From contig NZ_LFLS01000007.1 in assembly GCF_001189915.1 (NCBI RefSeq), positions 124,001 to 188,000 on the forward strand: a stretch of 64,000 nucleotides of DNA. The letters are read 5' to 3'. Below are positions 53,593-56,569 of this stretch, piece by piece. Made by a program: the position numbers and the translations under genes. Positions within the stretch are counted from its first letter, which is position 1, and every line of letters starts with the position of its first letter. This stretch comes from Herbaspirillum autotrophicum (GTDB lineage Bacteria; Pseudomonadota; Gammaproteobacteria; Burkholderiales; Burkholderiaceae_D). A model generated the notes under the pieces. It had not been told where the DNA came from and did not search any database. It saw nothing but the letters and a program-made list of their open reading frames with translations.

Positions 53593-54330
53593 TCAGGCGA
53601 CGCCGGTCCAAGCCTTTTCTTTGAGATTGGAACGCATGCGGGCAATCGCCTGGCTATGCAACTGACATACGCGCGACTCGGACACGCCCATGACGGCGCC
53701 GATTTCCTTGAGGTTCATTTCCTGCTCGTAATACAAACCCATCAGAATCTTCTCGCGCTCGGGCAAAGCCCGGATCGACTCCACCACCGCTTCGCGGAAA
53801 CCGCCATTGATCAGATTCTGCAACGGGTCTTCGCCTTGCTGCCCGGTTTGATAGCGATCCAGAAAATGCTCATGACCGCCATCGGCGTCATGAAAGTCTT
53901 CGTAATAGATCAATTGATGACCGCCGCAATCGCTCAGCAAGTCCTGATACTCGGTCAGACTCATCTTCAATTGCCCGGCCACCTCGGTTTCATGCGGCGG
54001 CCGGCCCAGTTGCTGCAACAGCACGTGAATCGCCTCTTCCACCTTGCGCGCGTTCTGGCGAATGCTGCGCGGCAGCCAGTCGCTGCTGCGCAATTCATCC
54101 AGCATGGCGCCGCGAATCCGTTGCACGGCATACGTTTCAAACTGCGCGCCATGCGTTTCTTCATAGCGATTGATGGCATCCAGCAAACCAATCATGCCGG
54201 CCTGAATCAGATCATCCACTTCGACACTGGGCGGCAACTTGGCTTTCATTTGATGCGCCAACTTCTTGACCAGCTGCGCGTGCAGAGTCAGCAAATCATT
54301 CTTGTCCGTCTTGCCGTTGACGTTATACAT
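53593..54330 (-). CDS. fliA: Flagellar sigma factor FliA (sigma-28)
   Basis: A 245-residue sigma-70 family protein. Region 2 (VDDLIQAGMIGLLDAINRYE, then FETYAVQRIRGAMLDELR), region 3 and the region 4 helix-turn-helix (EIGAVMGVSESRVCQLHSQA) are intact. It directs RNA polymerase to the late promoters found here at fliC, flgK, flgM and cheY, and is held by FlgM. It is the last gene of the flhB-flhA-flhF-flhG-fliA run. Confidence 0.97.
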   Translation of the reverse strand: MYNVNGKTDKNDLLTLHAQLVKKLAHQMKAKLPPSVEVDDLIQAGMIGLLDAINRYEETHGAQFETYAVQRIRGAMLDELRSSDWLPRSIRQNARKVEEAIHVLLQQLGRPPHETEVAGQLKMSLTEYQDLLSDCGGHQLIYYEDFHDADGGHEHFLDRYQTGQQGEDPLQNLINGGFREAVVESIRALPEREKILMGLYYEQEMNLKEIGAVMGVSESRVCQLHSQAIARMRSNLKEKAWTGVA

Positions 54331-54336
54331 AAAACG

Positions 54337-55170
54337 TCACACTCCGAGACTGGCACCATCGGTTGCCATACCGTACGTGCTTTTGGTTAAATTCGGCAAT
54401 TTGCTGGCCAGCCGCATGAATGCAATCGATGCCCCTGCCAGCGGAAATGCCTCCAGTACCGTACGTCCTTGTCCGGTCGCCCGCCGGATATGATCGTCGG
54501 CCGGCACCGAACCGATGAAATGCAATTGCGCCGCCAGATAGCGGCTGGCGGCCTGCGCCATGTTGGCATACACCATCTGTGCCTCGGCTTCGGAACCGCC
54601 GGTCACCAACAAGCCGAACGGGCGGCGACCAAGGCGGTCACTCAGATTCTTGAGCAACACGTAGGCAGCCTTGATCGATCCCGGATTGGTCGACACGTGA
54701 ATCACGATCTCGCCGGTTTCCATGGCCGGCACCGCCAGCGAATCTTCCTCGCCCAGCTCGGCACTCACCAGCGTGATGTCGGAGTCGGTGGTCAGCGAAT
54801 CAAAAATCTCTGCCAGCCGGGCTGCCTGCGGATGCGTAGCCGACGGCACCACCTTGCGCGACAGCCGCGCCAATGCAAAACCTTCCGGCACAATGCGCAC
54901 GGCATCGCACAGATCGCGCTCGCGCCGCGCCACATCGAGCAAGGTTGCCACCGCCACACCGCCAAAGCGCGACAGCACGCCGGACGGTGCAACACAGGCA
55001 TCCACCAGCAGCACATTGTTACTCTTGACTGCCAGCGAGGCCGCCAGATTGACCAGCATGGCGCCTTTTTCCGCATCCGGCAAGACCGAGAAAAAACTGA
55101 AAACCCTGGGAATCGGGCGCTCCAGCATGCGCCGCAATCCTTCTGCCTGATCTACTTCATGACTAGCCAA
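54337..55170 (-). CDS. flhG: FlhG/FleN-like MinD-type protein with degenerate P-loop
   Basis: 277 residues. Position after flhF, and a DQAEGLR motif at residues 7-13 (the FlhF-activating DQAxxLR signature), identify FlhG, which controls flagellar number and place. Where FleN/MinD proteins have GGKGGVGKT, this protein reads SVLPDAEKG (residues 28-36): the glycines, the deviant lysine and the Thr are lost. Downstream strands (VLLVDACVAPSG) still follow the fold. ATP binding is doubtful, so it may act only as an FlhF partner (inference). Confidence 0.88.
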   Translation of the reverse strand: MASHEVDQAEGLRRMLERPIPRVFSFFSVLPDAEKGAMLVNLAASLAVKSNNVLLVDACVAPSGVLSRFGGVAVATLLDVARRERDLCDAVRIVPEGFALARLSRKVVPSATHPQAARLAEIFDSLTTDSDITLVSAELGEEDSLAVPAMETGEIVIHVSTNPGSIKAAYVLLKNLSDRLGRRPFGLLVTGGSEAEAQMVYANMAQAASRYLAAQLHFIGSVPADDHIRRATGQGRTVLEAFPLAGASIAFMRLASKLPNLTKSTYGMATDGASLGV

Positions 55171-56569
55171 GGATCACCTCCCTCAAGCCCTTGTCATTCA
55201 TGACAGTGGCGGTTGGGCCGACGACTACCGGCAATTCGGCGTCACGAAATTCAAACGGCGCGGTTTCGCGCTTGAGCTTGAACGCACGATCAGCCAGATA
55301 CAGCTTGTTGGCCACGTGCAGATCTTCCGGCACGCGCTGGCCGTTGGCGACGTAATACAGATTGAGCTTTTGACGGATCACCACATCGAGCACATTGCCG
55401 ATGGTGGCGGCCTCATCCAGCTTGGTCACGATGCAACCGGCCAGGCCGTCACCGGAATACGCGTGCACCACTTCATTGAGCGTACCGCCCGTGGCAGTGG
55501 CGTTGAGGCACAGCAAGCGCTTGATTTCGGTACCGGCGCCGGACAGCATGGCCGCCTGTTCCGCCACCATCTGATCGCGCTGGCCAACGCCGGCGGTATC
55601 GATCAGCACGGTATGCTTGCCCTTCAGTTCTTCCAGTGCGATGCGCAGATCGGACTCATCCTTGACCGAGTGCACCATGACACCGAGAATCTTGCCGTAG
55701 ATGCGCAATTGTTCGTAGCCGCCGATACGATAGCCATCGGTGGTGATCAGCGCCAGCTTGCCGGGACCATGACGCATGACGCAACGCGCAGCCAGCTTGG
55801 CCGTGGTAGTGGTCTTGCCGACGCCGGTCGGGCCGACCAGGGCATACACGCCGCCCTTTTCCAGCAATTCATTTTCATTGGCCATGGTCATCAGGTTGCG
55901 CGCCAATACCGACTTCACCCAAAACAAACCATCCTCGGTCTTGGCATTGGCCGGCAGATTTTCGGTAATCAGACGCGACAGGCTGGCGCTGAAACCGGCG
56001 GCCAGCAATTCCTTCATCACCGCTGCCTTGACCGGCTCCCGCTTTTGCGTGCTGCCCCAGGAAATTTCTGCCAGCTGGGTTTCCAGCACCCCGCGCATGG
56101 AACGGATTTCCGTCATCACATCGCACAGAATTTCGTCGTAATCCTTGCCGTCGAATTCAGCCATGATGCTTTGCTGACGGCTGCTGCTGGCCGAGGTCGA
56201 CGGTACCGCACCGGGCTGGGCGCCACTGCGGTTGCGCCAGACCCGCGCCTCCACCACATTGGCGGCAGGCTCTGCCGCTGCCGGCTCCGGCCGCACTTCC
56301 TGCTGCACCGGGGCCTGGAACAGGCGCGCGGCAGTATTCGGCACGGCCGCCGCGGTTGGCAATGGCCGTCGCGGCGCCGGTCGCGGCATCGCTTCGCGCG
56401 CCATCGCCGGCACCACCAGCGAGGTCATATCCTCGTTGGCCATCGCCAGAATTTCCACCCCATCCTCGGTATTGCGATTGGAGAGGATGACCGCATCCGG
56501 ACCGAGTGACTCACGAACCTGACGCCACGCTTCACGCGATGAATTCGCAATAAATTTTTTAACGTTCAT
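55163..56569 (-). CDS. flhF: SRP-type GTPase FlhF
   Basis: 468 residues. The B domain is a low-complexity Ala/Pro/Arg-rich stretch (about 60-135) after the conserved start MNVKKFIANSSREAWRQVRE. The NG domain has Walker A GPTGVGKT at 246-253, and G-motifs such as LIDTAGVGQRD and TKLDEA. FlhF sets the site, and with FlhG the number, of polar flagella. It overlaps flhG by 8 bases and flhA by 4. Confidence 0.96.
   Translation of the reverse strand: MNVKKFIANSSREAWRQVRESLGPDAVILSNRNTEDGVEILAMANEDMTSLVVPAMAREAMPRPAPRRPLPTAAAVPNTAARLFQAPVQQEVRPEPAAAEPAANVVEARVWRNRSGAQPGAVPSTSASSSRQQSIMAEFDGKDYDEILCDVMTEIRSMRGVLETQLAEISWGSTQKREPVKAAVMKELLAAGFSASLSRLITENLPANAKTEDGLFWVKSVLARNLMTMANENELLEKGGVYALVGPTGVGKTTTTAKLAARCVMRHGPGKLALITTDGYRIGGYEQLRIYGKILGVMVHSVKDESDLRIALEELKGKHTVLIDTAGVGQRDQMVAEQAAMLSGAGTEIKRLLCLNATATGGTLNEVVHAYSGDGLAGCIVTKLDEAATIGNVLDVVIRQKLNLYYVANGQRVPEDLHVANKLYLADRAFKLKRETAPFEFRDAELPVVVGPTATVMNDKGLREVILG

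Follow-up and report, generated by a model that had tools for sequence, protein, structure and literature searches.

In the window, i.e., the whole stretch of 64,000 nucleotides from Herbaspirillum autotrophicum analyzed here, a variant flhG gene is located between the gene of its partner FlhF, an SRP-type GTPase, and a sigma factor gene read in the same direction (Table 1). The latter is presumably fliA. As the start of flhG overlaps the end of flhF by 8 nt, both genes are probably translated together. Relatives of FlhF and FliA adjoin flhG at all 55 loci of the bacterial family compared below, the fliA relative being on the same strand in every case, and TTG occupies the start position of flhG (55170 in the window) in 54 of the 55 family loci L001-L055. 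The conserved TTG and the 8-base overlap suggest a conserved translational coupling at low rate. The FlhF of the window bears the motifs GPTGVGKT (at 246), DGYR, DTAG (at 324), TKLDE (at 382) and GQRVPED, and the G1 motif is found in all 54 family FlhF frames of at least 380 aa. At one same-family locus (L102:4-1380, genome G060), a frame apparently bearing the FlhF C-terminus extends, as judged by eye, about 400 residues before flhG, and this FlhF seems to be unusually long.

Table 1. Features at the flhG locus; positions are those of the window and residues those of the encoded protein.
Feature	Position	Residues	Strand	Remark
flhG variant	54337..55170		minus	ORF of 277 aa, TTG start
flhF, SRP-type GTPase, partner of FlhG	55163..56569		minus	ORF and motifs
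fliA-like sigma factor gene	53593..54330		minus	downstream of flhG, same direction
DQAEGLR, FlhF-activating (enhancer) helix motif	55132..55152	7-13	minus	
Former P-loop, VLPDAEKG where FleN/MinD have GKGGVGKT	55063..55086	29-36	minus	codons read directly
Former switch I, DACVA in place of DADLG	54988..55002	57-61	minus	hydrolysis Asp lost
Former switch II, SAELG versus DTAAG in intact FlhG	54751..54765	136-140	minus	
C-terminal tail without LEFFVERLI-type membrane-targeting helix	54340..54384	263-277	minus	

Motifs and predicted structure of the window FlhG

Among titled genome records, the nearest relatives of the window FlhG are those of H. lusitanum and Herbaspirillum strain CF444 (77% identity to each), whereas its best relative in the sequence search is FleN of Pseudomonas aeruginosa (E 2e-21), a local match which covers residues 37-259 and leaves the P-loop region outside. 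With its adjacency to flhF, its N-terminal DQAxxLR helix and, in the predicted model, a FleN/FlhG-type MinD-like SIMIBI fold, the protein has the features of an FlhG orthologue. Those of a MinD/ParA-type ATPase are missing, as the deviant Walker A motif GKGGxGK[ST] is absent, the switch Asp residues are replaced and the scores stay below the curated thresholds of Pfam CbiA (15 bits versus a cut-off of 25.4) and NCBIfam minD_arch (49.7 versus 201.75). Likewise, the C-terminal amphipathic membrane-targeting helix characteristic of the MinD/FlhG membrane cycle is not present.

A previous sequence-only reading had claimed that VLPDAEKG stands at the site of GKGGVGKT, that switch I has changed from DADxG to DACVA and that the N-terminal DQAEGLR is kept. 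All three statements are borne out, since codons 29-36 of the ORF fall exactly at 55086-55063, residues 57-61 read as proposed and DQAEGLR is intact at residues 7-13. The ungapped alignment of the P-loop region is secure, with nearby positions (N41 and D57, among others) matching in the 55 family rows as well as in class relatives. The window protein no longer has the glycines of the P-loop, the signature Lys at position 30 or the Thr/Ser behind the Walker A Lys, and Cys59 and Ser136 are found at the sites of the second Asp of switch I and of the Asp of switch II, respectively. The former description of the P-loop as destroyed is correct for the glycines, Lys30 and the Thr/Ser, but goes too far in that the loop is not wholly erased: the Walker A lysine (position 35, 55066-55068) is still Lys in 54 of the 55 family rows (Arg in L052) and is under constraint. 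Lys35 thus stands out as persisting in the family although the other P-loop residues have changed.

An AlphaFold2 model of the window FlhG as single chain, calculated from 20 aligned family sequences (mean pLDDT 82.5, pTM 0.81), shows strand 22-28 followed by a helix at 32-48. In the control model, obtained by the same procedure from 20 intact FlhGs, strand 22-28 is followed by a loop at 29-34 and a helix at 35-48, and a C-terminal helix is formed by residues 274-290. The first helix of the window model accordingly begins at residue 32 after a 3-residue loop instead of at residue 35 after a 6-residue loop, i.e., three residues earlier and inside the former P-loop; mean pLDDT values of residues 21-40 are 89-91 in the models. 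The C-terminal tail of the window model has low pLDDT and no helix, and the DQA helix is modeled with low confidence. In the fold comparison, the model matches FleN 5j1j_B with Z 26.1 (rmsd 2.6 over 241 residues, 27% identity) and the FlhG structures 4rz2_B (Z 25.9) and 4rz3 (Z 25.6), the latter two being from Bacillus/Geobacillus. The fold is predicted to be retained, with the phosphate-binding loop replaced by an extended helix start.

Conservation and selection in genus and family

In all 34 genomes of the genus, flhG is present, open and free of stops. At the family level, 263 of 294 genomes give an FlhG match at E 1e-3 or better, the weakest of these being too weak to be called FlhG. The family set employed for comparison comprises 55 rows, the window plus 54 loci (automatically returned loci and 20 hand-chosen ones). 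GK[TS] is absent from all 55 family FlhGs and DQAxx[LM]R present in each of them, a uniformity which places the loss of the P-loop alongside a kept DQAxxLR far beyond chance. The switches are more variable: position 59 of switch I is Asp in 10 of the 55 rows, and position 136 of switch II is Asn in 32, Asp in 21 and Ser in two. Among 80 loci from titled genome records, including 21 of Massilia, 11 of Janthinobacterium, six of Duganella, five of Herbaspirillum, two of Sulfuriferula and others, of which some organisms probably overlap with the 55-row set, DQAxxLR is found in 80 and GK[ST] in none, while 79 have an acidic residue followed by Lys at positions 34-35. The relatives, for which a check had been proposed with the sequence-only reading, consequently share the change, with all 55 family and all 80 titled-record loci having DQAxxLR without a P-loop.

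The Herbaspirillum-type FlhG is also encountered in Sulfuriferula (L173 and L232), a member of the Nitrosomonadales by NCBI, and in the tree described below the f34 rows (L058, L060, L071) sit in the starred clade of the window. From their near-identical starts, we guess that the f34 loci L058, L060, L063-L066 and L071 are Sulfuriferula, and a horizontal transfer of the flhF-flhG-fliA block of the Sulfuriferula/f34 type is possible.

Selection was estimated from 29 Herbaspirillum sequences in 161 pairs with dS of 0.05 to 1.0, the pairs not being independent. Across the whole gene, dN/dS amounts to 0.105; it falls to 0.042 in the DQA helix (residues 7-16) and to 0.048 in the former P-loop (residues 28-37), but reaches 0.163 and 0.153, respectively, in switches I and II and 0.147 in the tail. 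Val29, Leu30 and Lys35 are invariant in all 29 sequences, each being encoded by several synonymous codons. While the switches are under weaker constraint than the gene overall, the replaced loop is under stronger constraint, a pattern that speaks against decay and would permit a new role.

FlhG across order, class and phylum

GTDB nests the beta-proteobacteria within the Gammaproteobacteria, and order and class are used here in the GTDB sense; family, order and class of the window probably correspond to Oxalobacteraceae, Burkholderiales and Gammaproteobacteria. The order sample consists of 108 rows, 28 new loci and 80 hand-chosen stretches (one a duplicate), which cover part of the 172 genomes with a match; seven rows belong to the family of the window (L056, L057, L059, L061, L062, L102 and L103). 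From these, 103 FlhGs were counted as FlhF-adjacent, a number including one locus twice (L070 and L123). The rows L113, L115 and L116 were left out of these counts as paralogues, as they have intact SGKGGVGKT and DADLG, lack DQAxxLR and have no flhF alongside. L115 adjoins ORFs which by eye do not look flagellar but resemble those of a rhodanese-type and a GGDEF protein. Also outside the FlhF-adjacent counts are L102, L249 and L312, where an FlhF match is absent from the fetched stretch, though that of L102, judged by eye, does contain the terminal part of an FlhF-like frame. Outside the order, 69 class rows were compared (29 best-scoring places and 40 hand-chosen).

The catalytic triad of signature Lys30, Walker A Lys35 and switch I Asp59 is complete in none of the 55 family rows and none of the 103 FlhF-adjacent FlhGs of the order but in 68 of 68 sampled from the class outside it, where positions 59 and 136 are Asp throughout (68/68). 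Conversely, DQAxx[LM]R is found in 103 of 103 order FlhGs versus 45 of 68 outside. Omitting the family of the window and the duplicate gives the same picture (triad 0/96, DQAxxLR 96/96, GK[TS] in 29). As the order keeps DQAxxLR without the triad, and the rest of the class the triad with DQAxxLR in part of the cases, the two halves of FlhG are kept and lost in opposite ways. G-K-[TS] still stands at the Walker A place in 29 of the 103 order FlhGs; L241 and L260 have GKS at the signature place, not at the Walker A place.

In the phylum sample, all 30 FlhGs have the full GKGGxGK[ST], and DQAxxLR occurs in six of the 29 FlhF-adjacent ones; of these 30, 23 belong to the same class (two already among the 69 class rows) and seven to other classes, and the query, built from intact FlhGs, leans toward intact ones. 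Outside the order, DQAxxLR is often absent despite the presence of FlhF (L124-L153, L274-L313, L321-L350), that is in 23 of 68 class and 23 of 29 phylum cases, and FlhFs beside such FlhGs may be switched off in some other way.

The C-terminal membrane helix differs as well. With a strict pattern, the LEFFVERLI-type tail motif is detected in 0 of 55 family rows versus 58 of 69 rows outside the order, where 68 of 69 tails also reach a profile score of at least 5 bits, a figure that is partly circular because 68 of the same tails had served to build the profile. Within the order, an FMQRLI-type tail is found in 26 of 29 FlhF-adjacent rows with GK[TS] versus 19 of 74 without, and the corresponding comparison over order rows (26/29 versus 20/76) gives a raw p of 4e-9. 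Tested phylogenetically, the tendency of GK[TS] and the membrane helix to be lost together is not significant, there being only three supported independent pairs.

A tree was constructed from 126 rows after identity thinning, with the P-loop, switch, helix and tail columns excluded. On one side of it, the 31 rows that do not belong to the order group together (support 100, starred). Order rows show a gradient, many having GVGKT with an altered signature and others VGQT, TGAS, GVT or VGCT, and a starred clade of 28 rows (18 of the family and 10 others), which contains the window, is devoid of GK[TS]. On this tree, GK[TS] requires at least eight changes, while DQAxxLR requires at least 11, all of which lie outside the order since every row inside it has the motif. 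As the tree is the result of a quick search and 46 of its 123 inner branches are weakly supported, the order of losses is not firm.

Probable function and evolution of an FlhG without P-loop

The P-loop and switch motifs of the window FlhG are lost, its DQAxxLR helix is retained and the protein is under selective constraint. Probably, it is a pseudo-ATPase that acts independently of ATP and has the stimulation of FlhF as its remaining task; it would neither bind ATP nor form an ATP-dependent dimer, would be soluble and would still activate its partner. On a MinD-like scaffold, the nucleotide site would have been lost by stepwise replacement and the membrane anchor would be gone, leaving the N-terminal DQAEGLR helix as the constrained output. 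This helix would complete the catalytic site of the GTP-bound FlhF dimer and speed up GTP hydrolysis, returning FlhF to the inactive monomer, so that flagellar number would be set by the amount of FlhG and by contacts of its remaining surface, with no ATP-driven cycle between monomer and dimer or between cytosol and membrane. Flagellar control in Herbaspirillum and its relatives then probably works without ATP, although flagella are normally counted by this protein through an ATP-driven switch. A pseudo-ATPase with FlhF-activating helix, as the sequence-only reading had already suggested, is strongly supported by the comparative sequence data, structure prediction and selection, yet is not peculiar to this genome but a lineage-wide state. 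For the proposed absence of the ATP-driven membrane cycle, the missing C-terminal membrane-targeting helix provides a second line of support. A second, intact FlhG supplying the ATPase was not found in the genome, where the protein search gave one FlhG-like match. A broad profile added seven hits, none better than E 1e-14; five of these do not match a simple P-loop pattern, and the other two look like MinD and Mrp.

FleN is not known to carry DQAxxLR. While FleN of P. aeruginosa (5j1j, 7ejw, 8pb9) shares its fold with the window FlhG, it differs in having GKGGVGKT and DADLG, and in terms of sequence motifs the window protein is its mirror image, with the helix kept and the ATPase motifs lost. 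According to the titles of 5j1j and 7ejw and a 2025 review (PMC12826062), FleN can take up an ATP analogue, forms a dimer with ATP and holds FleQ in check. FlhG/YlxH of Bacillus/Geobacillus (4rz2, 4rz3) has the fold and, as in the window FlhG, the N-terminal FlhF-stimulating DQAxxLR helix, but is described as also having ATP binding, a dimer and a C-terminal membrane helix (PMC12826062, PMC12327844), unlike the window protein. The other FlhGs of the order likewise have DQAxxLR without a complete triad (all 103 sampled), although 29 of them still have GK[TS], 26 with an FMQRLI-type tail, neither of which is found in the clade of the window. A comparable case is the N-terminal domain of BcsE, a secretion-linked RecA-like ATPase fold whose Walker A motif, according to PMC7439463, has diverged and is lost as here, though fold family and partner are unrelated.

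The same 2025 review (PMC12826062) presents FlhG as an ATPase whose ATP-dependent dimer shuttles between cytoplasm and membrane, with its DQA helix stimulating FlhF through the glutamine. In Bacillus subtilis, as reported in PMC12327844, the Q8A replacement in DQAxxLR closely resembles an flhG deletion, while FlhG without its membrane sequence shows a modest effect and the ATPase-dead D65A variant has no discernible effect on hook distribution; from this, the authors deduced that stimulation of FlhF is the central FlhG function. Because D65A is a constitutive dimer in B. subtilis, this experiment does not prove the dimer dispensable. By analogy, the window protein would have evolved the same way as these mutants point, with helix and scaffold remaining.

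Conservation of Lys35 in 54 of 55 family rows, under constraint, leaves room for another ligand or a residual nucleotide contact. Rather doubtful, but worth considering, is a repurposed pocket in which the conserved (D/E)(D/E)(E/D)K helix cap together with Lys35 would create a novel surface that binds another ligand or a protein such as FlhF, a component of the C-ring or a pole protein. This would agree with a dN/dS of residues 28-37 as low as that of the DQA helix (0.048 versus 0.042), with the invariance of Val29, Leu30 and Lys35 despite several synonymous codons and with the acidic residue plus Lys in 79 of 80 titled-record loci; however, the constraint could also be structural, the segment capping a helix beside the central sheet. 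Much less credible is weak, non-canonical ATP binding via Lys35 with FleN-like cycling, in favor of which stands the lysine at the Walker A position in 54 of 55 family rows. The window protein has lost every glycine of the P-loop as well as the signature Lys, Thr36 and the acids of switches I and II, the former loop is modeled as helix, the membrane helix needed for the cycle is absent, and K36A alone abolishes ATP binding in the otherwise intact FlhG of Geobacillus (PMC12327844). Gene decay or an error in sequencing or assembly has practically no chance of accounting for the observations: sequencing error, frameshift and pseudogene formation are ruled out by stop-free frames throughout the genus and the low dN/dS over residues 28-37, and the whole-gene value and the identical state in the 80 titled-record loci point the same way.

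Compatible with an ATP-independent FlhG, and proposing a cause for the change, would be the idea that ATPase loss followed the swap of the FleQ-type master regulator, which is restrained by FleN, for FlhDC. In favor of this, FlhC (its presence being scored by hand with a threshold of about E 1e-50) is found in the genome of the window and in eight of the nine further family members sampled within the order, and the order yields weak, generic-looking FleQ-domain hits, the best at 38.5 bits. Matches to PF06490 were obtained in 138 of 300 genomes, all with at most 38.5 bits, and in 0 of 14 control genomes, but this domain does not separate FleQ from other receiver domains. However, GK[TS] is lost in 33 of 42 rows with FlhC versus 43 of 63 without (Fisher p 0.27), so that FlhDC replacement as the cause of P-loop loss is unsupported. 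The raw counts support a link to the membrane helix only, whose motif is missing in 36 of 42 rows with FlhC versus 23 of 63 without (raw p 4e-7), though with only two supported phylogenetic pairs. Altogether, we consider this scenario unlikely.

In the open-licence literature, searched by titles and abstract openings, no earlier report of a beta-proteobacterial FlhG without P-loop was found. Taking the comparisons together, it is about an even chance that the whole beta-proteobacterial branch, i.e., the order of the window in the GTDB sense, runs the FlhF/FlhG switch without an FlhG ATPase cycle. In such a course of events, the catalytic triad would have been lost first, then the P-loop lysine several times and finally the glycines together with the membrane helix, while the FlhF-activating helix would have stayed invariant and the former P-loop of the window's family turned into a new conserved functional surface; in the rest of the class, the reverse would apply, with the ATPase kept and the helix lost repeatedly, making them two separable modules, each sufficient alone. 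The label "FlhG ATPase" is likely wrong about the enzyme in beta-proteobacteria. These FlhGs would represent a natural separation-of-function series, in which one large lineage has only the FlhF-activating helix and part of its relatives only the ATPase, and the question of which activity sets flagellar place and number would become directly testable with natural proteins instead of point mutants.
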